Assembly: GCA_023511725.1 (NCBI GenBank)
Contig: JAIMAY010000011.1
Location: 1-64,000 of the forward strand
Length of the DNA stretch: 64,000 nt
Direction of reading: 5' to 3'
Origin: Alicyclobacillus sp.
GTDB lineage: Bacteria > Bacillota > Bacilli > Alicyclobacillales > Alicyclobacillaceae
How positions within the stretch are numbered: position 1 is the first letter of the stretch; every line of letters starts with the position of its first letter. Under the pieces are notes generated by a model. It searched no databases, had not been told where the DNA came from, and was given only the letters and a program-made list of their open reading frames with translations. Made by a program: the position numbers and the translations under genes. Shown one piece after another: positions 48,266-62,101 of the stretch.

Positions 48266-49198
48266 TCATGATGGCGTCGGCTGCTCATTCGCCGGACGGG
48301 TCCAGCGTCGGTTCGCCTCCTGCGCTGCCTCGAGCTGCGCCGCGAGACCGTCCGCATCATCCTCCTGCAACACCTGTCGCCAGCGCTGAAGCACGGCCGT
48401 CAAGTGATCCAAGTATGCGACGACCGCCTGGCGGTTGGCGCGTAACGTGTCGGGCCAAAAGCCCGGTGGCGATGCGCTCAGCCGCGTCACATCGCGGAAC
48501 CCCGGTCCTATCCATGCGCGCCAACTATCAGCGCAAGCGCCCGCCAGGCGGTCGGAGGCGAGCATGGCGCTCAGCGACGCGAGGTGAATCCCGTGGCTGA
48601 CCGCCGCCATGGCCACATCATGTTCCTCCGCTGAGACCACGGGCACAGGCTGCGCCCCCAACGCTTGAATCACGGGCAGCACCTGCTGCACCGCCGGGTA
48701 GCCAGTGAGGGTAAGCCACGTACATCCCCTCCACAGCCCGGGATCCGCCGCCCGTGGCCCGCCTGCTGCCTTGCCCGTCATGGGGTGGGTGGGCGCGAAC
48801 ACGGCATCCAGCCCGGCATGGGACGCCGCCTGGCACAGGGGAGCCTTAACACTGCAGATATCCATGACGATCTCGGCATGGCGTGCCACCTGCGGCAGCA
48901 GGCGCGTGGCTGCAGCGACGGGAACCGCAAGCACCGCGAGTCCGAACCGGTGTTTCGCTTCTCCTGTCAACTCCGCCAGATCTTCCAGTACGGCGTCGAA
49001 GACCGCCATGTTCGCAAGCGCATCCCGATGAGCCTGATGGTTTTCCACGCCCACCAGATGAACATCGGGCCACACGCGTCGCAAACCGGCTGCGAGTGAG
49101 GTGCCCATCAGGCCACAACCAACGACCAGCACCCCGCCGCGAAGCAGCGGCGGGGTCTGGGCCGAGTCCCCTCGTATCTCAGCTCGGCTGTCCGGCAT
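48266..49198 (-). CDS. tyrA: Prephenate dehydrogenase
   Basis: It oxidises prephenate to 4-hydroxyphenylpyruvate for tyrosine. At 310 residues it has the NAD-binding [19 protein letters not shown], the [11 protein letters not shown] and [18 protein letters not shown] motifs (conserved catalytic His region), and [20 protein letters not shown]. Bacillus TyrA carries a C-terminal ACT domain. Here the protein ends after the helical dimerisation part, so that feedback site appears to be missing. ATG at 49198 overlaps aroF by 20 nt. Confidence 0.92.
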
Positions 49199-50219
49199 AC
49201 ACCGAACTCTCCACGGCGCCGAGCGCGCCTGACACGCGGCGCACTTCATGCACCATCTGTTCGAACTCCTCGAGGCGCAGTGACTGCTGACCGTCGGAGA
49301 GCGCCTCCGCAGGGTTGGGGTGAATTTCCACAATGAGACCGTGTGCGCCCGCGGCAATCGCGGCGCGCGCCATCGGCGTGACGTAACGGGCATTGCCGAC
49401 ACCGTGACTGGGATCCACGATGATGGGCAGATGGGACAGGTGCTGGATGACCGGCACCGCGTTCAGGTCCAGGGTGTTGCGCGTGTACGTCTCAAACGTA
49501 CGGATGCCGCGTTCGCACAGAATGACATTCGGGTTCCCTGCATCGAGGATGTATTCGGCGGACATCAGCCACTCCTCCATCGTCGCCGAGAGCCCGCGCT
49601 TGAGCAGCACCGGCTTGTTCGTTCGGCCAACGGCCTTGAGCAGCGGGTAGTTCTGCATATTGCGGGCGCCGATCTGCAGAACATCCACATACTCCAGCAT
49701 CATGGGCAGGGCTTCCGTCTCCATAACTTCCGAAACGACGGGCAAGCCCGTCTGTTCGCGTGCCTCGGCGAGGTACTTCAATCCCGTTTCACCCAGACCC
49801 TGGAAGGAGTACGGAGAAGAACGCGGCTTGAACGCACCACCGCGGAGCATGTGTCCTCCGACGCGCTTCACGAAGTGGGCCACTTCGAGGATTTGCTCGC
49901 GCGATTCCACCGAGCACGGCCCGGCGATGATCACCGGTTCACCGCTGCCAATCACGTGATTGCCGACCTGCACCACCGTATCCAGCGGATGGAAGGCGCG
50001 GCTCGCGAGCTTGAACGGGTTGCTCACCTTCATCACTTTTTCCACGCCAGGGAGCGACTCCAGCGGCAATTCCAGCACGCGTTCCTTCGGTCCAATCACG
50101 CCCACGATGGTCTTCTCCACCCCTTCGGAGATGTGCACGCGAAGCCCTTTTCCCTGCAGCAGCCGCACGACCTGGTCCAATTGTTCCGGCAATGCGCCTT
50201 CCTTCATCACGACGATCAT
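49179..50219 (-). CDS. aroF: 3-deoxy-7-phosphoheptulonate synthase, type I beta with N-terminal regulatory domain
   Basis: It condenses phosphoenolpyruvate and erythrose-4-phosphate, the entry to the shikimate pathway. The 346-residue protein has an N-terminal ferredoxin-like domain ([20 protein letters not shown], about 1-70), as in the feedback-controlled Thermotoga enzyme. The barrel has [52 protein letters not shown] and [12 protein letters not shown]. No chorismate mutase domain is present; AroH is separate. It overlaps the trpA stop by 4 nt. Confidence 0.95.
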
Positions 50220-51085
50220 CTCTCTCCCACTCCCTTGTCTGCATTTGCACCGGTGCCCGCGGATTCCGGCACGGCGTGTATCGCCTCAGCCAAGCTGGCT
50301 GCAAAGCGGTGAAGGGTGTTGATGGCCCTCTGACTTGGGTCGTCCGCGTTCGGTTCGGCCGACCGTAGCTGCTCTTCAAGTTTGCGGATAAAAGCGCTAC
50401 CGACAATGACGCCATCCGCGAACGACGCGATGTGACGCGCTTGCTCCGGGGTACCGACGCCGAATCCCACAGCCACAGGGACGGAAGCGTGGCGTCGAGC
50501 CGCCGCCACCAGTTCTTCCAACCTCTCCGAGAAGCGGGCCCGTTCCCCCGTCACGCCGAGGGAGGAGACGCAATACACGAAGCCACGCGCGCTGGCGCAG
50601 ATGGCGGCCACGCGTTCTTCATCCGAGGTAGGAGCCACCAGCGGGATCAGCGCCAGCCCGAACCGGTCTGCCGTCGCGCGCACAGCCTCGCTCTCCTCAA
50701 ACGGCAGGTCAGGGACGATGACGCCGTCCACGCCGGCGCTCTTCGCGTCGCGAAAGAAGCGCTCCGGCGTATACTGGAGGAGCGGATTGACATAGGTGAA
50801 CAGCACCAACGCTTTGTCGGTGTGCCGTCGAAGTTCCTCCGCCAGCTCAAAGGCTTTGGGTAGGCGGAACCCAGCGCTGAGCGCCCGCACGGCGGCGGCT
50901 TGGATCACGGGGCCGTCGGCCAACGGATCCGAGTACGGAATGCCAATTTCGACCACATCCGCCCCAGCCGCCAAGACCGCGCGAAATAGATCCAGGGAGA
51001 GGTCGAAGGTCGGATCGCCCGCCATCAGGAACGGGATCAGCGCTTTGCCGGTACCGGTGTGAAACGCATGCTCAATGCGTGTCAT
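50216..51085 (-). CDS. trpA: Tryptophan synthase alpha subunit
   Basis: It cleaves indole-3-glycerol phosphate to indole, which is channelled to TrpB. At 289 residues it has [19 protein letters not shown] with the catalytic Glu and Asp region, [30 protein letters not shown] and [13 protein letters not shown]. The C-terminus extends about 20 residues beyond the usual length. It overlaps trpB by 14 nt. Confidence 0.95.
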
Positions 51086-52292
51086 GGCGCGCTCCCCCTT
51101 CTGTCAACTCCGCCACCTGCTGTACGTCTTTGTCACCGCGTCCAGACAGGCAGATGACCAGAATCTCATCCTTGCCTCGCTGGCGAGCCTCCTTCATGGC
51201 CTGCGCCACGGCGTGCGCCGACTCGAGCGCAGGAATGATTCCCTCCAGCCGCGACAACAGGAAGAAGGCCTCCAGGGCTTCAGCATCTGTGATGGGCACA
51301 TAGCGCGCCCTGCCTGATTCATGCAGCCACGCGTGCTCCGGGCCTATGCCAGGATAATCAAGTCCGGCCGAAATGGAGTGTGCAGGTGTCACCTGCCCAA
51401 ACTCATCCTGCAGGAGATATGTCAGCGCGCCGTGCAGAACGCCATGCCGTCCGCGACCAATGCTGGCCGCATGCTGCTCGGTGTCCAGGCCCTTGCCTGC
51501 AGCCTCGACCCCAATCAACTCGACGCTCGTATCTTCGATGAACGGATAAAACATGCCCATCGCATTGCTGCCGCCGCCCACGCAGGCGATGACAGCGTCC
51601 GGGAGCTTGCCCTCCACCTCCAGCATCTGCCGCTTCGTCTCATCGCCGATGATGCGCTGAAAGTCACGAACAATGCGCGGATATGGGTGCGGGCCCACCA
51701 CCGAACCGATGATGTAATACGTATCTTCCACGTGCTCCACCCAGTGCCGGATGGCCTCGTTGGTGGCGTCCTTGAGCGTACGCGTCCCGGATGTCGCCGC
51801 AACCACATCCGCGCCAAGCATCCTCATGCGGAACACATTGAGCGCCTGGCGCCGCATGTCCTCTTCGCCCATGAACACCGTGCATTCCAAGCCGAACAAA
51901 GCAGCAACCGTTGCCGTGGCCACCCCATGCTGTCCGGCGCCCGTCTCCGCGATGACACGCTTCTTGCCTGTCTTCACCGCAAGCAGTGCCTGGCCAATGG
52001 TGTTGTTGATTTTGTGAGCACCCGTGTGGTTCAGGTCTTCGCGCTTGAGATAGATGCGCGGTCCGCCGAGATGTTCCGTCAAGCGGCGTGCAAAATAGAG
52101 CGGTGTTGGGCGTCCCGCGTACTGCCGAAGATAGTACGAGAGTTCGCTCTGAAATGCGGGATCCGCCGACAGCCGTTCATAGTCCGCCTCCAACTGGCGT
52201 AAGGCGGGCATCAGTGTCTCCGGAACGTAGCGGCCGCCGAAGGGGCCGAACCGCCCGTGACGGTCCGGGTAGTCATGAGCACGAGTTGTCAT
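51072..52292 (-). CDS. trpB: Tryptophan synthase beta subunit
   Basis: A PLP enzyme joining indole and serine to make tryptophan. At 406 residues it begins with the [17 protein letters not shown] motif. The PLP-binding Lys lies in [42 protein letters not shown] and [14 protein letters not shown] follow. This is the trpB1 form that pairs with TrpA. It overlaps trpF by 20 nt. Confidence 0.96.
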
Positions 52293-52947
52293 AGCTGTCC
52301 ATCACCTCAATCAGCGCCCGGATCTTGTCCGGAGATTTTCGCCCGTCCACCTCGACGCCGGATGAGACGTCCAGACCGGCAGGGCGTACGCATTGGAGCA
52401 ACTGGGCCGCGTTCTCGGGGCGGATACCGCCTGCCACCCAGACGGGCGCCGTTGGAGCCAGGGCTTCCAGGAGATGAGGCAAGCGCGTCCAGTTGAAGCT
52501 TTGCCCATGGCCGCCGGTGACCGTCGGGGCCGCATCCTTGGGCGGCGCGGCGTCAAGCAGGACGGCGTCGATCACGCCCGCATACCGCTTCGCCGCGTCG
52601 ATGACATTGCCGGGGGTCTCTTCCGCGACCGGCAAGGCCTTCCACACTTCCAATCCCGCCGTCTGCAACTGTCGGCATGTCGCCGGCGACTCGCTGCCGT
52701 GCAGTTGCACAGTGCGAAGCCCGCAGGTACGCGCGATGTCCAACACCTCGTCCGGGGGGAGGTCGACAAAGACGCCTGTAGCTCGCACCCTATCCGGGAG
52801 ATGTTGGATGATCAGACGCGCATCGGCCGGGGCCACGTAGCGACGGCTGGCCGGGACGAACACGAATCCGACATGCGTGACGCGCGGATGATCCGTGAAG
52901 CCAAGATCATCCCCCGGCCGGAGGCCGCACACCTTCAGCGCCGTCAT
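52273..52947 (-). CDS. trpF: Phosphoribosylanthranilate isomerase
   Basis: It converts phosphoribosylanthranilate to its ribulose form. The 224-residue barrel has LKVCGL at the start (catalytic Cys), [28 protein letters not shown], the catalytic Asp in [11 protein letters not shown], and [15 protein letters not shown]. It overlaps trpC by 4 nt. Confidence 0.94.
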
Positions 52948-53762
52948 GGGGCACCGCCTCGAACAGCCGCACCCAGCGGCACGCGGAGTGCTGACAGCCG
53001 CTGTTCCAGCAGTGGGGTATGTGCAACGCGCATCAGGGACTCACCCACCAGGATGGCGCGCGCGCCAGCTGCAGCCATCCGTGCCGCATCATCATGACCT
53101 TGGATCCCGCTCTCCGCAACCGCCAGGGTATCCGGCGGCAGTTGGGCCAAGACGCGCTCCGAGGTGGCCAGCGAGACCTCGAACGTGTGCAGGTTGCGGT
53201 TGTTGATGCCAATGACAGCCGGGGCCGCCGCCATCGCCGCCTCCGCCTCTTCCTCATCGTGGACTTCGACCAGCGCGGTCAGCCCGAGATCGCGCGCGTA
53301 CGCCGCCAGTTCGCGCAATCGCTGCGGCGTCAGCGCAGCGCAGATGAGCAGCACGGCATCCGCGCCGGCCAGCCGGGCCTCCTCGATTTGCACTTCATCG
53401 ATGATGAAGTCCTTGCGCAACACCGGCACCGAAACGGATGCGCGCACGGCCTTCAGGTCCTCCAGCGTGCCCCGGAAGAACGTCTGGTCCGTCAGTACCG
53501 AGATGGCCGCCGCACCGGCCGCTGCGTACCGCTGCGCCGTCCCCACAGGATCAAACGCCTCTGCAATCTGTCCCTTGGAGGGGCTGGCCTGTTTGACTTC
53601 GGCGATCACGTTCAGACTGTCACCGGCCGCAAGTGCTCCCGCAAAGTCACGACACGGGGGAAGCTGCTCCAGGCGCCGCCGCCAGCCTGCGTCGCGCTGT
53701 GTGCGAAGCGCATCCACCTCTTGCCGCTTCACTGCGAGGATGCGTTCCAAAAACGTGGTCAT
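52944..53762 (-). CDS. trpC: Indole-3-glycerol phosphate synthase
   Basis: It closes the indole ring. At 272 residues it has ILAVKRQEVDAL, VIAEVKQASPSKG (catalytic Lys context), VPVLRKDFIIDEVQIEEAR, GINNRNLHTFEV and AVAESGIQGHDD. It overlaps trpD by 4 nt. Confidence 0.95.
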   Translation of the reverse strand: MTTFLERILAVKRQEVDALRTQRDAGWRRRLEQLPPCRDFAGALAAGDSLNVIAEVKQASPSKGQIAEAFDPVGTAQRYAAAGAAAISVLTDQTFFRGTLEDLKAVRASVSVPVLRKDFIIDEVQIEEARLAGADAVLLICAALTPQRLRELAAYARDLGLTALVEVHDEEEAEAAMAAAPAVIGINNRNLHTFEVSLATSERVLAQLPPDTLAVAESGIQGHDDAARMAAAGARAILVGESLMRVAHTPLLEQRLSALRVPLGAAVRGGAP

Positions 53763-54841
53763 GGGGCCACCTCCGCAGGACGGAGCTGTTGGGTGAACGT
53801 GATGTAAGCCTCGAGGGTGCGCGCCGCGGAGCCATTGTCGATGTGCTCTGCCGCCAAGCGTACGCCGTCCGCCATCGACAAAGCCTTGCCGGCGGCAAAC
53901 AGCGCTGCACCCGCATTGAGCAGAACCGCGTCGCGCGCCGGTCCCCTCTGCCCAGAGAAGACGGCGCGGATGATGCGCGCGTTGTGGTCCGCGTCGCCGC
54001 CCTGCAGGGCCGTGACGGGTGCTGGCGTCAGCCCGAGTTGCTCCGGACGGACGGCGTAGTGACGAACCTCACCGCGCCGTACCTCCGCAACCTTGGTCTC
54101 CCCCGCGAGTGAGAGCTCATCCAACCCGCCGGCCCCATGCACCACCAGGGCGCATTCTGTGTCCAAGCGCGCGAGTGCCTGTGCGATCTTTCCCACCAGA
54201 TCTGGCTTGAAGACCCCCAGCACTTGATGGGATGCGCCTGCCGGATTGGTGAGCGGGCCAAGGATGTTGAACACGGTGCGGAAACCGAGTTGCCGACGCG
54301 TCTCCGCGGCGTGCTTCATCGCCGGATGATATACAGGCGCAAACAGGAAGCAGAAGCCCGTAGCCTCAAGGCATGCTTGGGCCTCGGCCACGCTTAAATC
54401 CACACGTGCACCCAGCGCCTGTAAAACGTCAGCACTGCCACTCTTGCTCGATACGGCGCGGTTGCCGTGTTTCGCCACGGGTACGCCGGCGGCCGCGCAC
54501 ACAAAGGCTGCTGCCGTGGAGATGTTGAACGTGTCCGCGCCATCTCCACCTGTCCCGCACGTGTCGAGTACGGGCCGCGAGGGGTGAAGGCGGATCGCAT
54601 GCTGGCGCATGGCCCGCGCGAAGCCCACGATTTCCTCCACAGTCTCGCCGCGAACCGCAATGGCGGCGAGGAGTCCAGCAACCTGAACTGGCGTCATCTG
54701 GCCGGACATCAACAGGTGCATCACCTGCTCCGCCGTGGCCTCGTCCAGGGTTTCACCCGTCGCGACGCGGCGCAGAATCGCGCTCACTTGAAGCGCTGGC
54801 TCATCGGCCGCCTGCTGGCGGTACAGTTGGGTGCTCTCCAT
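53759..54841 (-). CDS. trpD: Anthranilate phosphoribosyltransferase
   Basis: It joins anthranilate and PRPP. At 360 residues it has DTCGTGGDGADTFNISTAAAF (PRPP binding), VAKHGNRAVSSKSGSADVL, FLFAPVYHPAMKHAAE and FNILGPLTNPAG. It is the first gene after the trp leader; trpE and trpG are not present here. The four bases of overlap with trpC and the GAG-rich ribosome binding site suggest control at this start codon. Confidence 0.96.
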   Translation of the reverse strand: MESTQLYRQQAADEPALQVSAILRRVATGETLDEATAEQVMHLLMSGQMTPVQVAGLLAAIAVRGETVEEIVGFARAMRQHAIRLHPSRPVLDTCGTGGDGADTFNISTAAAFVCAAAGVPVAKHGNRAVSSKSGSADVLQALGARVDLSVAEAQACLEATGFCFLFAPVYHPAMKHAAETRRQLGFRTVFNILGPLTNPAGASHQVLGVFKPDLVGKIAQALARLDTECALVVHGAGGLDELSLAGETKVAEVRRGEVRHYAVRPEQLGLTPAPVTALQGGDADHNARIIRAVFSGQRGPARDAVLLNAGAALFAAGKALSMADGVRLAAEHIDNGSAARTLEAYITFTQQLRPAEVAP

Positions 54842-54859
54842 CTCTGCTCGTCTCCTCTC
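54842..54859 (-). promoter_or_regulatory. Four GAG triplets across the trpD ribosome binding site
   Basis: On the minus strand, GAG occurs at 54859, 54854, 54849 and 54844 with 2-nt spacers, directly before the trpD ATG (54841-54839). The GAGGAG-type Shine-Dalgarno lies within it. TRAP recognises (G/U)AG triplets with 2-3 nt spacers, so a second, short TRAP contact over the ribosome binding site is possible. Four triplets could also arise by chance in a purine-rich site. Confidence 0.45.
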
Positions 54860-55024
54860 TCATGCCTACTGTCTCCACTGGGAAGCTGGCGAGAACCGGT
54901 GCGCGGAGGCGTAGCCCTGAAGGTCCGGTGGATATAAAGAAATCCACACGTCAGAGCCGCCAAGAGCCGCTCCGACCTGCGGATTTCGCAACCATCCGAG
55001 GTCATGATTCCCCTGTTTACAGGA
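54860..55024 (-). promoter_or_regulatory. trp leader region with alternative pairing potential
   Basis: On the minus strand this part contains a hairpin with arms GACCT-CGGAT and ATCCG-C-AGGTC. It also holds two CGGCTC copies able to pair with GAGCCG inside the upstream GAG array, and a GTGGAT/ATCCAC hairpin. No classic T-tract terminator is present. These could form the switch part of a TRAP-controlled leader. No T-box motif was seen. Confidence 0.4.
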
Positions 55025-55072
55025 CTCAGCTCGGCTCAACTCTGCTGCACTCGTCTCGTCTCAGCTCATCTC
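55025..55072 (-). promoter_or_regulatory. TRAP (MtrB) binding site: ten triplets on a 5-nt period
   Basis: On the minus (transcribed) strand, GAG triplets end at plus coordinates 55025, 55030, 55035, 55040, 55050, 55055, 55060, 55065 and 55070. The remaining slot (55045) is CAG. Every spacer is exactly 2 nt. Bacillus TRAP is an 11-subunit ring that wraps RNA of 11 (G/U)AG triplets with 2-3 nt spacers in the trp leader. Position (between a promoter and trpD) and regular spacing make this assignment strong. The mtrB gene itself is not in the window. Confidence 0.8.
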
Positions 55073-55160
55073 GACCGACCACGCCATGAAAGCCTGGTCG
55101 CCACTCGCTCTCGCAGCGCTGGATCAAGGCTTGCTTGCGAGAGTCGTTGTAATTATCCCC

Positions 55161-55189
55161 ATGATACGTGCTCATCGCCGCCCCGTCAA
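55161..55189 (-). promoter_or_regulatory. Sigma-A promoter of the trp operon
   Basis: On the minus strand, TTGACG (55184-55189) is followed after exactly 17 nt by TATCAT (55161-55166). Transcription would start near 55154, giving a leader of about 310 nt that contains the GAG array. It lies directly after the aroH stop. Confidence 0.75.
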
Positions 55190-55199
55190 CCGCCAGTTG

Positions 55200-55568
55200 T
55201 CACGCATCCGCGATGTCAGGACGGAGTTGGACCGCATCCCCTAGGTACACGTGCACAAGTTCATCCTGCGCCTTGTCCGTATTCACATGGAGCAGCACGC
55301 GCACACAGCGCTCCAGCGCACCGGGTACATCCAGTTCGCGGGCGCACATCAGCGGTACCCATTGCCATCCTGGCAGGGAACGGACCGCCTTGGCTGGAAA
55401 GGCCGCGTTCAGGTCGGGCGTGAGCGTCAGGATCACGCTGGCGACGTCGTCCACGTCAATCGCGTTCGCCTCGACGATGCGCAGCATCAAATCACGCGTG
55501 GCTGTGTAGATGGCCTCGGGCGTGTTGGCGGGCACGGTGTTGGCCCCACGAATACCTCGAACGCGCAT
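55200..55568 (-). CDS. aroH: Chorismate mutase AroH
   Basis: It converts chorismate to prephenate. The 122-residue AroH-fold protein has VRGIRGANTV (Arg near residue 7), MCARELDVPGALERCVRVLLHVNT (Cys ~75 and Arg ~90) and VHVYLGDAV (Tyr ~108), matching the Bacillus active site. A second ATG at 55571 is possible; 55568 has better spacing from GGAGG. The start overlaps the aroB stop. Confidence 0.94.
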   Translation of the reverse strand: MRVRGIRGANTVPANTPEAIYTATRDLMLRIVEANAIDVDDVASVILTLTPDLNAAFPAKAVRSLPGWQWVPLMCARELDVPGALERCVRVLLHVNTDKAQDELVHVYLGDAVQLRPDIADA

Positions 55569-56674
55569 CATTCCGCCTCCTCGCCGGTGGTCGCGGCCTC
55601 CCACATCGCCGCCACCTCCTCCGGGGTCATGTCCCTCACCGTTTCCACCTGGCCGATGGCACGCGGCAGTACGAATGTCCAGCCTGTGCCACGGTGCTTC
55701 TTGTCCACCTGAATCGCCCGCGCCACGTCTTCCCAGGGTAAAGCCGGGGGCCGGGTGGGAAGAAGGTGCGCGTCCAGCACGTCCACTATCCGCTGTGCGT
55801 CCTGGGCTGGCAGCAGGCCGCGCTGGACGGCCAAACGCGCCTCCAATGCCAGTCCGATACTGACAGCTTCGCCGTGGTTGAGCGTATAGTGGGTCAACAG
55901 TTCCACGGCGTGACCGAGGGTGTGTCCCAGGTTGAGCCACATGCGTATGCCACTTTCCCGCTCGTCCGCCTCGACAATTCGCACCTTGACCGCAACGGCC
56001 CGCTCCAGCATGAACGTCACCACGCGGGAATCCTGCGGTGGTTCGGGCAGCGGACATTGTTCGAGGATGGAGAACAGTTCAGGGTCACCGATGATCCCAT
56101 GCTTGATCACTTCCGCCATGCCGCCGCGCCACTCCCGCGGGGGGAGTGTGACAAGCGTGTCGGTATCATACAGAACTGCCCGTGGTGGATAGAACGCCCC
56201 CACCAGATTCTTGCCGCGCGGAAGGTTGACCCCGACCTTGCCGCCGATGCTGCTGTCATGCGCGAGCAGCGTCGTCGGGACCTGTACCCAACGGATACCA
56301 CGTAGGTATGTGGCGGCGACGAATCCTGCAAGATCACCCACCATGCCTCCGCCCACCGCGACGATCACGCCATCCCGCCGCACGCCAGCATCAAGCAACG
56401 CGTTGTACAGACGCTCTGCCTGAGCCAGCGATTTGCTCTGGTCCCCCGGGGCCACACTGGCCAGTTCCGCATGCCATCCCGCGGCGGTTAGCACATGCGC
56501 CACGTGGTCCGCGTGGCCTAGGGAACGCACTGTATCGTCCGTAACGACGAGAACGCGGGCGTCGGGCTGTATCCCCGTGGCCTCCAGCACATCAGGCAGC
56601 CTGCGCCGGACACCGGGACCAATGTGCACATCATACCCGCCCAACTGAGACTGGACACGAAGGACGGTGGTCAT
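55568..56674 (-). CDS. aroB: 3-dehydroquinate synthase
   Basis: An NAD- and metal-dependent cyclisation of DAHP. At 368 residues it has [42 protein letters not shown], the metal ligands in GMAEVIKHG, and GHTLGHAVE with [13 protein letters not shown] at 56674 overlaps the aroC stop by 4 nt. Confidence 0.95.
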
Positions 56675-57828: not shown

Positions 57829-57916
57829 GGGTGTCTCTCCTCTCCTCTTTCTCTCCACTCCCAGCTCGCGTCGGACGCTGTCAGGAAGGATCGCTCACCG
57901 GGTGAAATTTCTCTGT

Positions 57917-57944
57917 ATTATAGCATGTTTCGCTCGGCTGTCAG
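57917..57944 (-). promoter_or_regulatory. Probable promoter of aroCBH
   Basis: On the minus strand, CTGACA (57939-57944), 16 nt, then consensus TATAAT (57917-57922). It overlaps the last codons of the M42-like gene and lies about 85 nt before aroC. Confidence 0.65.
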
Positions 57945-58934
57945 GGTGTCGGCACGTTTGCCGAGAACTGCCACCAGCCTGGCTGTTTCGTCCACGTCCT
58001 CGAGTTGTACGCGAGCCGCATACGGAGACGCAGCAAGCACGGGCATACCCACGCCGATTACGGGCATCCTCGCTATCCTCAGCGCCGTCCCGGCGTCCGA
58101 GCCATCCTCCGTCAGCACCGCTCGTTGCAACCGCCGTCCCGCCTCGCTCGCCACCCGCTCGGCGAACTGTTGCAGGGCTTGCGGCAGCACGAGCAGCGGA
58201 TCCCGCAGCCGAAGGACCGGGCCACCGCCCAACCGCGGTTCGTCGCCGCCTGGACGGATGGGGATAGGCTCCACCACAATCGTCAAATCTGCCGCAGTGC
58301 TTTGGACCACCGTGCGGATGCCGCGGTGTCCGGTCTGACGTTGCACGACCAACGCCAAGGTCACGCGCTGACCCGCCTGCGCCAGTTCCGCGTACGCTGC
58401 CAGTGCTGCGGTGACCGCGGCGCGAGGGCCCACCGCACGTCCCGCGATGCTTCCCTCCCCCAACTCCACCGCATCCTCACCAATGACGCCCGCCAATCCC
58501 ACGCTCAGCTTCTGCGGTACGGACTCGCGAAGTCCGGCCGCCACGTCTACGCTGAACTGGGACGCTTCCCAGCGGTCCGCTGGCGCCTGTGGATCGCGAA
58601 GCAGGAGTCCGACCGTCCCGTCGACGAAGCGCACCAGCCGGCCCGCCCACTGCGCGGGCGCATCTGGACCGATGGGCGCCACACGTTCGTGCCCGTCCGC
58701 GTCTACGTCGAGCACCATCACACCCGGTTCGTCCACCGGCGCGCAGATCAGGACGTGAGGTCCTTGGCCATCCTTTTGCGCGTAGCCGTTGCCGAGCGCG
58801 TCGCTCCACGTGGCATCGGCCGTCGCCGCCGCATCCTGCAGCAATGCTTGCACCAATGCGTGCTCACTTCCCGAGGGCGCAATGAAGCGCGTCCACTTGA
58901 GCAGACTGTCCCGCCACACCGCCTGATTCGTCAT
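57918..58934 (-). CDS. M42 peptidase-like protein lacking metal ligands
   Basis: A 338-residue protein aligned by eye with its two neighbours. APVDEPGVMV replaces the AHMDEVG motif (His lost). GRAVGPRAAVTA replaces the GKxxDDRxG motif (Asp lost). QRQTGHRG replaces QEExGxRG (catalytic Glu lost). Overall length and the IAPSGSE start are kept, so it is a full-length but probably inactive paralogue. It starts within the stop of the active copy (4-nt overlap), which suggests a role as a partner subunit. M42 enzymes form large tetrahedral assemblies. Confidence 0.75.
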   Translation of the reverse strand: MTNQAVWRDSLLKWTRFIAPSGSEHALVQALLQDAAATADATWSDALGNGYAQKDGQGPHVLICAPVDEPGVMVLDVDADGHERVAPIGPDAPAQWAGRLVRFVDGTVGLLLRDPQAPADRWEASQFSVDVAAGLRESVPQKLSVGLAGVIGEDAVELGEGSIAGRAVGPRAAVTAALAAYAELAQAGQRVTLALVVQRQTGHRGIRTVVQSTAADLTIVVEPIPIRPGGDEPRLGGGPVLRLRDPLLVLPQALQQFAERVASEAGRRLQRAVLTEDGSDAGTALRIARMPVIGVGMPVLAASPYAARVQLEDVDETARLVAVLGKRADTLTAERNML

Positions 58935-59983
58935 GCCTTCATCCCTCCGCTTCCGGCGGGCGGTGTGAAACCGCCCTCGGCAATCTCTTGGAGCAGTGCC
59001 AGGACCATGCGCACGGTGGCATGGTAGTCGTCCATCGAGATGATCTGTACGGGTGCGTGGATGTAACGCACGGGCACGGAGATGGACCCACCCATCACGC
59101 CCCGCCCAGACACCTGGATGGCACCGAAATCGTTGGATCCACCCTTCACCCGTCGGAGTTGATACGGGATGTGATGCTTTTCGGCGACGCGGATCATAAA
59201 GTCGAGAAAACGCCGGTCCGCCACCGTCCGGCTGTCGTACACCGTGAACGCAGGGCCGCCTCCGAGTTTGGTGCCCTCACCGTAGCTCGGTGTACCCGCC
59301 ACGTCGTAGCAGACCGTTCCCTCGAGCGCGATGGCGATGTCCGGCTTCACGCGCTTTGCCGCCACCTCCGCGCCGCGCAGGCCAATCTCTTCCTGCACGG
59401 TGAACACAGCCGTGATCGGCAAGAGCGGCCGCGCCTTCAAGACCTCCAACAGCACCGCGCACCCCACCCGGTCGTCGAACGATTTCGCTTTTGCGCAGCC
59501 ATCGCCGAAAGGCTCAAAGGCGGTCGCGAACACCGCCACGTCGCCTGGCTGCACGACCTGGCGCGCCTCCCGATCGTCGCGGGCACCGATGTCGATGTAC
59601 AGGTCCTCGATGCCGGGCACTTTGGATCGCTCAGCCCGCGGCGTGAAGTGAACGGGCTTCCAGCCGATCACGCCCCACACCCTGTGGGGTCCCACCCGCA
59701 CGGGCTTGGAAAGCAGGACGCGCGGATCAATTCCGCCGATGGCTCGAAAGCGGAGCAGCCCATCGCCATCCACGCGCACGATCATCAGACCCACTTCGTC
59801 CATGTGCGCGTCGAGCATCACGCGGGGACCGGTATTCGCACCATGCACCTCGCAGTACAAGGAACCCAGGCTATCGGTGAAGATGTGATCCGCGTATCGA
59901 GTGGCATGCGTGCGAATGACATCGCGGATCTCATCCTCAAAGCCGGACGGACCCACGGCCTCGGTGAGTTCTTTCAAAAGCAT
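58931..59983 (-). CDS. M42 family metallo-aminopeptidase (active type)
   Basis: A 350-residue cytosolic two-metal aminopeptidase. The N-terminus is LTEAVGPSGFEDEIRDVI. Metal and catalytic motifs are complete: DAHMDEVGLMIV (His), KSFDDRVGCAV (bridging Asp), VQEEIGLRGAEVA (catalytic and ligand Glu) and VRYIHAPVQI (His). It trims peptides in the cytosol. ATG at 59983 has GGAGGG upstream. It overlaps the preceding copy by 10 nt and the following one by 4 nt. Confidence 0.92.
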   Translation of the reverse strand: MLLKELTEAVGPSGFEDEIRDVIRTHATRYADHIFTDSLGSLYCEVHGANTGPRVMLDAHMDEVGLMIVRVDGDGLLRFRAIGGIDPRVLLSKPVRVGPHRVWGVIGWKPVHFTPRAERSKVPGIEDLYIDIGARDDREARQVVQPGDVAVFATAFEPFGDGCAKAKSFDDRVGCAVLLEVLKARPLLPITAVFTVQEEIGLRGAEVAAKRVKPDIAIALEGTVCYDVAGTPSYGEGTKLGGGPAFTVYDSRTVADRRFLDFMIRVAEKHHIPYQLRRVKGGSNDFGAIQVSGRGVMGGSISVPVRYIHAPVQIISMDDYHATVRMVLALLQEIAEGGFTPPAGSGGMKA

Positions 59984-61041
59984 GTGAGTCCCTCCACTTC
60001 CTCGCGGCTCAGCCGAGCCAGATAGCGTGCAAGCAGGCGACCGCAATCCACCACGTCGCGGTAGTCGGCCACCTCGACCGAGGTATGCATATAGCGGATG
60101 GGCACACCCACCAGGCCGCATGGGATGCCCTCGGCTGCCAGTTGAATCACGCCAGCGTCCGTACCCGTGGTATCCTGGGTCGTCTCCAACTGCCACGGGA
60201 TACCGTGGGCTACCGCCGTGTCGCGGAGTGCTCGGAACACGCGCGGATGGATGTTGGGCCCCATAGTGATGGCCGGCCCACGGCCCAGTTCGAAACTCAT
60301 GTGGGGTGGGAGCCCCGGGGACGTGCCGAATGTCACGTCGATCACGATGGCCAGATCCGGCCGATACTTCTCCGCCACCGCGCGCGCCCCGGCACTCCCG
60401 AGCTCCTCCTGCACGGTGCAGGCCACCAGAATGTCGGCGGGATGGAGGCGAGATCGCAAATCCTCGAGGCATTCCAGGACAACCGCGAAGCTGATGCGGT
60501 TGTCGATGGCACGTCCCGCCAGCCTTTCGCCCAACAAGGGGATCGGTGACCTGCGCACGGTGATCCGATCGCCGACGCGGACAGCAGCACGCACCCGCTC
60601 CTCGGACATCCCCAGATCTACGAACAACTCCTCCAGCGCAGGCGCTGTGTCGCGTTCACCCGGAGCCATCAGATGGGGGGGCTTAGCGCCGATGACGCCG
60701 ACGAGTTCGTCCTTCCCGTGGACGGTGACTTCTTGACCAATCAACACGCGCGGGTCGAAGCCGCCGGCCTGCACCATGCGCAGAAAGCCGCCCGGCTCGA
60801 TGGCGGAAACAAACAGGGCAATCTCATCCATGTGCACCGCCAGCATCACCCGCGGGCGAGGATCCGGTCCTACGCCGCGTCGAAGCCCCACCACATTGCC
60901 GAGCCAGTCGGTGTCCATCTCGTGCACGTACGGGGCCAAGGCATGCTGCAGGCGCGGCCCCATATCCGCGGCCTCGCAGCCCGCACCGCCCCAACCTTCC
61001 AGCAGCGCCAACAGCGTCTGCCGGTGTCTACCGCTTGTCAA
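59974..61041 (-). CDS. M42 family metallo-aminopeptidase (second active-type copy)
   Basis: A 355-residue paralogue with AVHMDEIALFV, AGRAIDNRISFAV, VQEELGSAGARAV, IVIDVTFG and IRYMHTSVEV, so all metal ligands are kept. The region before the first motif diverges from the neighbour, so substrate range may differ. TTG at 61041 has AAGGGAGG 8 nt upstream and overlaps the pseudouridine synthase gene by 14 nt. Confidence 0.9.
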   Translation of the reverse strand: MTSGRHRQTLLALLEGWGGAGCEAADMGPRLQHALAPYVHEMDTDWLGNVVGLRRGVGPDPRPRVMLAVHMDEIALFVSAIEPGGFLRMVQAGGFDPRVLIGQEVTVHGKDELVGVIGAKPPHLMAPGERDTAPALEELFVDLGMSEERVRAAVRVGDRITVRRSPIPLLGERLAGRAIDNRISFAVVLECLEDLRSRLHPADILVACTVQEELGSAGARAVAEKYRPDLAIVIDVTFGTSPGLPPHMSFELGRGPAITMGPNIHPRVFRALRDTAVAHGIPWQLETTQDTTGTDAGVIQLAAEGIPCGLVGVPIRYMHTSVEVADYRDVVDCGRLLARYLARLSREEVEGLTCF

Positions 61042-62101
61042 CGGCGTCGCCTCCCTTGCGGATCCTCTCGAGATGTTCAAGAAATGCCTGCGCGTCGGAC
61101 GATTCGAGCATACGGGTGAAAGCTGCGTCGTCTCCCCCGATTTCTGTCCACAGGCGGCGGATGTCCTCCGGCGGTTCGGCGCGGGCCACGTGCTCCGCGC
61201 CCGTGACGGGATGTTTCCAGGCCAGCATCGCCGCATGAAGTGCTTGTCGCTGGATGGCGGAGCGCACCCATGCCTCTGCCGCCACGGCATCCACGGTGAC
61301 GGGCAGGGGCACGCGACTGTAGCCCCCGCCATACACGCGCTCGCCCACCAGAGGTTTGCCGATACTGGCCATATGCAGTCTGATCTGGTGCGTGCGACCG
61401 GTTTCGAGGACAAGCTGAACCCATTCGATGGCTACGTCGCCCTTGACAGGTTGGCGCGCCAAAATGCGGTAGTGTGTGACGGCGCGCTGACCATCGTCGG
61501 ACACCACGCGGCGCGAGGGATGGGCCGGATCGACCGCGATGGGGAGGTCAATGCATTCCCACGGCGATGGTCCATCCAGCGGCCGGCTGTCCCCTGACCA
61601 GACCCACGCCCAATACACGCGATGCAGATGGCCATGCTGCAATGCGAGGTCAAACAGATGATGCGCGTGGGCGTGCTTCGCGAACATGATGAGGCCCGAG
61701 GTATCTCGGTCGAGTCTATGGACCGAATGCGGTGTGAAGCCTTCGCCGAGATAGTACCGCACACCGGCGAGCAGGGATCCCTGCTTCTCCTTGGATGATG
61801 GGTGCGTGAGAACCCGCGCGGGCTTGTTAATGACGAGGATCTCGTCGTCCTCATAACGGATGTCCAGGTCCATCGGTTCCGGTTCGACATAGGACACCTC
61901 GTCGGGCAGGCGGACAGAGATCTGATCTCCAGTCTCGACCGGATCCTTTAACCGCGCCGGTTTGCCGTTCTTGAGTACACCGCCTGTCTGAATGAGTTGC
62001 CGAATCAGCCGTTGCGATGCTCTCAACTCGGTCTGAAGTACGGATCGCAGTGGCTTTCCCGCATCTTCTGCGGCAATGGTGAGTTCATACTCCAAGCGCA
62101 T
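61028..62101 (-). CDS. RluA/RluD-family pseudouridine synthase
   Basis: It isomerises uridine in rRNA or tRNA. The 357-residue protein has an S4-like N-terminal region (LRSVLQTELRASQRLIRQLIQTGGVLKNG). The core has VINKPARVLTHPS and the catalytic Asp in VHRLDRDTSGLIMFAK, with VLETGRTHQIRLHMASIGKPLVGERVYGG. The C-terminal 100 residues extend beyond typical RluD. Exact target is unknown. ATG at 62101; the Shine-Dalgarno GGGGATGG is close. Confidence 0.88.
   Translation of the reverse strand: MRLEYELTIAAEDAGKPLRSVLQTELRASQRLIRQLIQTGGVLKNGKPARLKDPVETGDQISVRLPDEVSYVEPEPMDLDIRYEDDEILVINKPARVLTHPSSKEKQGSLLAGVRYYLGEGFTPHSVHRLDRDTSGLIMFAKHAHAHHLFDLALQHGHLHRVYWAWVWSGDSRPLDGPSPWECIDLPIAVDPAHPSRRVVSDDGQRAVTHYRILARQPVKGDVAIEWVQLVLETGRTHQIRLHMASIGKPLVGERVYGGGYSRVPLPVTVDAVAAEAWVRSAIQRQALHAAMLAWKHPVTGAEHVARAEPPEDIRRLWTEIGGDDAAFTRMLESSDAQAFLEHLERIRKGGDAVDKR

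Follow-up and report, generated by a model that had tools for sequence, protein, structure and literature searches.

In Bacillus subtilis, the trpEDCFBA operon is preceded by a long leader that carries a promoter, an array of (G/U)AG triplets separated by spacers of 2-3 nt and a terminator downstream of the array (PMC3913778). A direct action of TRAP on RNA polymerase has been proposed for this organism, and it is on weak attenuators that the prevailing idea of termination forced by TRAP itself is based (PMC3913778); the block of a ribosome-binding site by TRAP has been established in B. subtilis as well (PMC4347634). The control of a trp operon by TRAP is already known, and what is new in the locus described here is a division of the trp genes into trpGE and trpDCFBA with arrays on both, a GC-rich attenuator, and the occurrence of an attenuation array together with an array at the Shine-Dalgarno sequence. 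TRAP has so far been studied almost only in Bacillus, and the open-access literature yielded no paper in which TRAP and Alicyclobacillus are both named, most subscription papers lying outside that search; parts of the split-operon TRAP arrangement may already have been described in the literature.

The locus lies in a stretch of 64,000 nucleotides from an Alicyclobacillus sp. genome (contig JAIMAY010000011.1 of assembly GCA_023511725.1), which we refer to as the window. Its genes are arranged in the order aroC-aroB-aroH-[leader]-trpD-trpC-trpF-trpB-trpA-DAHP synthase (Table 1), and the trp genes of B. subtilis similarly adjoin aroC-aroB-aroH. Among named sequences, TrpD finds its best matches in Alicyclobacillus and in a MAG of the Alicyclobacillaceae. 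The leader of trpD measures ~313 nt and holds the promoter, a first triplet array (array 1), a terminator hairpin with its U-rich tail and a second array (array 2), all within that length. Upstream of aroC (57918-61413, minus strand), aminopeptidase-like ORFs, one recognized by a weak model match and the others by eye, occupy the place in which analogy with B. subtilis would put the genes that surround mtrB in the relatives, and synteny with the relatives seems to break at aroC.

Table 1. Features of the trp leader and its surroundings, given as positions in the window
Feature	Coordinates	Strand	Remarks
Weaker GAG-rich array over the aroC Shine-Dalgarno	57835..57867	-	six triplets; patchy in relatives
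aroH, chorismate mutase	55200..55571	-	just upstream of the trpD promoter
Promoter TTGACG-N17-TATCAT	55161..55189	-	transcription start predicted near 55154
Possible 5' stem-loop (CUCUCGCA/UGCGAGAG)	55106..55146	-	upstream of array 1; z -0.9
Array 1, proposed main TRAP site	55025..55072	-	ten 5-nt-spaced slots, nine GAG and one CAG (slot 6)
Intrinsic terminator (attenuator)	54933..54986	-	hairpin 54986-54940 and U-rich tail UUUCUUUA
Array 2	54836..54875	-	seven (G/T)AG triplets; last five spaced 5,5,5,6
trpD, anthranilate phosphoribosyltransferase	53759..54841	-	TIGR01245, 433 bits
trpC	52944..53762	-	
trpF	52273..52947	-	
trpB	51072..52292	-	
trpA	50216..51085	-	
DAHP synthase, Bacillus subtilis type	49179..50219	-	last gene of the cluster

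When read directly from position 55072 down to 55025 on the minus strand, array 1 is GAGAT GAGCT GAGAC GAGAC GAGTG CAGCA GAGTT GAGCC GAGCT GAG, which bears out both the coordinates and the pattern of ten slots that an earlier note on this DNA had reported, along with the promoter that it placed upstream (55189-55161, minus strand) and the identity of the gene that follows, trpD. The spacers are 2 nt long and the period is exactly 5 nt, without an insertion or deletion across the ten slots, so that the array has the composition by which TRAP-regulated trp leaders are recognized (about 9-11 (G/U)AG triplets with 2-3 nt spacers in an untranslated leader). One strand of the leader is rich in purines, as would suit an array produced by chance or a purely compositional tandem repeat, but this explanation is refuted by simulations and shuffles that never came near array 1, and we assign it a negligible probability. 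The pattern was matched by none of 100 dinucleotide shuffles; the chain score, which accepts GAG/TAG triplets at steps of mostly 5-6 nt, is 8.4 for array 1, whereas 150 order-2 Markov simulations of 64 kb, scored on both strands, reached no more than 4.1; and the expectation from base composition for at least nine GAG in ten slots is ~6e-10 per window. Tandem Repeats Finder also reports no array at the site, as is expected where spacers vary, and homologous arrays with different spacers stand before trpD in other genomes.

Behind array 1 lies a feature that the earlier note overlooked, a GC-rich terminator hairpin (AAAUCCGCAGGUCGGAGC...GCUCUGACGUGUGGAUUU) with an energy of -32.6 kcal/mol (z -6.7). 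An automatic terminator scan of the leader returned no match, being blind to this structure because its long stem has a mismatch and its U-tract is interrupted. Homologous hairpins are found in most leaders of the family, and in an alignment of 18 of them 89% of the cells are paired, versus 31-43% when it is slid; in five pairs both partners have changed. The promoter is nearly invariant in the relatives, and one of the TTGACG-N17/18 type lies upstream in all of those that bear a terminator. The stem-loop drawn at the 5' end of the leader is tentative, its stability being no greater than that of shuffled sequences. In other Gram-positive bacteria, trp leaders with terminators often work through a T-box or through a leader peptide that contains tandem Trp codons, and either device might in principle control this leader too; yet a search for Rfam T-boxes found none at the gathering score in the window and none at E values up to 5 in the leader, and none of 30 leaders, that of the window included, has a leader ORF with adjacent Trp codons, which makes such control highly improbable.

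Array 2 (GAGACAGTAGGCATGAGAGAGGAGACGAGCAGAGATGGAG), also overlooked in the earlier note, spans the Shine-Dalgarno sequence (54859-54852) and the start codon of trpD. The mean array-scan value at 30 trpD starts is 3.88, compared with 1.13 at 77 other ORF starts in the loci of the family, an enrichment with p about 1e-14 that is uncorrected for relatedness among genomes that are not independent of each other. In many leaders the Shine-Dalgarno sequence is itself in phase with the triplets (GAG-AG-GAG-NN-GAG). Array 2 is short, with five to seven triplets versus 9-11 in proven TRAP sites; nine triplets over the Shine-Dalgarno were seen among the family leaders only in L134 (genome G011), and the second array is poor in leaders L119, L131 and L136.

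A scan for arrays at the trpD loci of named genomes was positive for 38 of 39 Bacilli and for none of 36 non-Bacilli. The arrays of Paenibacillus and Brevibacillus are mostly located about 1.7-2 kb upstream of trpD, that is, before trpE, and those of Alicyclobacillus and Tumebacillus directly before trpD. The earlier note had described the position directly before trpD as a peculiarity of this array; the position is correct, but it is not peculiar to the genome, since an array stands before trpD across the family (among relatives that include no same-genus companion of the window's genome), and it is a family trait because trpGE has split off as a separate operon located elsewhere. The spacers differ between the homologous arrays, which in some relatives are short, with 4-5 consecutive triplets. 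Among trpG leaders, 14 of 20 loci have an array and 10 also have a terminator (for example CCACAGCCATGCTGTGGCTTTTTT), the latter count coming from a crude automatic call that includes a few doubtful cases and misses some that are recognizable by eye. The trpD leaders of the sister genus g5 and of G011 have no terminator and carry arrays only at the Shine-Dalgarno; in the g5 leaders L135, L137-L138 and L140-L144 a short hairpin of variable sequence interrupts the array, the second half of which lies over the Shine-Dalgarno, and a terminator-less, hairpin-split array of the same kind is seen at trpG of G032 (L174). We know of no TRAP design in the literature in which a hairpin over the Shine-Dalgarno divides a single array. 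In a Bacillota MAG (L027), 15 triplets (1001-1079) precede trpD by a distance compatible with an intervening trpE, and 8 more (2817-2857) form a second array directly before trpD.

The arrays of the relatives are conserved together with mtrB, the gene for TRAP, which scores above the family cut-off in 55 of 60 related genomes. When the TRAP sequences of relatives are aligned to that of B. subtilis, the positions of the RNA-binding residues K37, K56 and R58 are invariant, as is the T25/Q47/T49/T52 region of the tryptophan pocket. In phmmer searches the relatives' TRAP matched solved TRAP structures at 1e-58. The sole complete member of the class that lacks mtrB, G058, has no array at trpE. In G026, an otherwise complete g5 genome, the mtrB match (C1:1761989-1762141) covers profile positions 19-69 only and has an in-frame TGA, possibly a pseudogene or a sequencing error.

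The window's own assembly (76 contigs, rated 97.7% complete) contains no match to the Pfam TrpBP family, a result that might be read as a true loss of mtrB in the lineage, with array 1 left behind as an inactive relic. In the relatives, mtrB belongs to a conserved block, which in L109 reads der-plsY-gpsA-gcvH-spoIVA-mtrB-hepS-menG-hepT-ndk. Neither gpsA nor spoIVA has a match in the window's assembly, der and menG have distant matches only (those of der being paralogues), and hepT is absent, the single polyprenyl synthetase there being possibly ispA. Almost all bacteria require Der and GpsA for viability. Because der, gpsA, spoIVA, menG and hepT are absent together, the absence of mtrB is best regarded as an assembly gap of little weight, and the whole block that bears it appears to be unassembled rather than mtrB lost, the more so as menF and menD are present in the genome (men genes, named from sequence, are on contigs C73 and C50). 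An array of ten slots free of insertions and deletions would, moreover, not last without selection, and we regard the relic as very unlikely. The earlier note had asked for a search of the genome for mtrB, which failed in the assembly along with the flanking genes; the joint lack of mtrB and of conservation, at which that note would have abandoned its reading, is not what was found, given that the arrays before trpD are conserved across the family.

The assembly likewise yielded neither trpE nor trpG. The trpG-trpE pair of several relatives lies behind a tRNA stretch, and such stretches are typical sites of assembly breaks. Two Chorismate_bind matches in the genome were considered for trpE and rejected, since they lie in men clusters and are without an Anth_synt_I_N domain. 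The genome (G000) has two separate menF-like/men clusters, on contigs C50 (L113) and C73 (L112), which represent either a duplication or slight contamination.

The family-wide arrays and the mtrB genes of nearly all relatives support the interpretation of array 1 as a TRAP site outside the genus Bacillus, which is clearly the preferred one. Based on the sequence comparisons, we consider it highly probable that array 1 is the main TRAP site of the trpDCFBA leader and that TRAP, the binding of which is deduced here, would both terminate transcription and block the translation of trpD. From the analogy with B. subtilis (PMC3913778; PMC4347634), we infer TRAP binding, its dependence on tryptophan and the following order of events in the leader. 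With ample tryptophan, the TRAP ring would wrap around array 1 while the RNA is being made, transcription would stop at the terminator, and on any read-through transcripts TRAP bound to array 2 would deny ribosomes access to trpD; with tryptophan in short supply, TRAP would be released and trpDCFBA expressed. With the array and terminator that the trpGE operon of several relatives has of its own, both halves of the pathway might answer to TRAP.

Folding of the leader with array 1 free and sequestered, as proposed in the earlier note, gave no clear-cut switch. The terminator prevails in both states, with P 0.99 in constrained folds of this leader whether the array is free or blocked, and nascent-RNA folds of 21 terminator-bearing leaders, this one included, show no consistent opening of its 5' arm upon blocking of the array (in the leader of the window the arm is 0.75 paired in the free state and 0.88 in the bound one). 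No clean antiterminator overlapping the array and the terminator appeared in the folds of this leader or of the 21, where the signs were mixed. A hairpin noticed by eye (GACCUCGGAU...AUCCGCAGGUC) that would sequester the 5' arm of the terminator has no counterpart in the relatives that were read and was set aside. The switch might come about either through an antiterminator that forms kinetically or through an action of TRAP directly on the polymerase. The logic of the switch could in principle also be inverted, but we know of no precedent for this.

Control might also be exerted at one level, either chiefly or solely on translation, with TRAP at array 2, or solely on transcription, with TRAP at array 1. 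The terminator-less g5 and G011 leaders with their Shine-Dalgarno arrays indicate that translation-only control exists in the family, and the poor second arrays of L119, L131 and L136 point to the converse; the leader in the window, on the other hand, has both a terminator and array 2, each standing above its controls, and we judge control at a single level here to be possible but the less probable case. The array over the aroC Shine-Dalgarno, which was missed in the earlier note, is a possible third TRAP site candidate, and similar arrays at aroC occur in some other genera of the family (L188, L195, L191, L196 and L187). We suggest only tentatively that one TRAP might gate a split supra-operon of aromatic and tryptophan genes at three RNA sites, namely the translation of aroC, the transcription of trpDCFBA by way of array 1 and the terminator, and the translation of trpD.

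In the Alicyclobacillaceae the leaders form a natural series, from those with an array and a terminator, through those with a Shine-Dalgarno array in addition, to those with a Shine-Dalgarno array only, sometimes split by a hairpin, and they show how the presumed TRAP control stays with the genes once the trp operon is divided into trpGE and trpDCFBA. The GC-rich attenuator of this leader is strong, in contrast to the weak ones on which the view of TRAP-forced termination rests (PMC3913778), and this makes the leader a good test case for that view.

Among known systems, the Trp T-box leaders of other Firmicutes have in common with the model proposed for this leader the tryptophan-responsive attenuation of trp operons, and differ in the T-box, none having been found here. 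The trpEDCFBA leader of B. subtilis is the closer likeness, with its promoter, its array, a terminator downstream of the array and a long leader; it differs in that the array here precedes trpD rather than trpE, has ten slots rather than eleven, with all triplets but one GAG and a strict 5-nt spacing, is followed by a GC-rich terminator of far lower energy than the -12.6 kcal/mol reported there, and stands in a leader in which no clean antiterminator was found and the Shine-Dalgarno lies under a second array instead of a TRAP-induced hairpin. The triplet array over the ribosome-binding site is in turn like those of trpG and trpP (yhaG) of B. subtilis, where TRAP blocks translation directly (PMC4347634), with the differences that the Shine-Dalgarno array of trpD is shorter and shares its leader with an attenuation array and a terminator.
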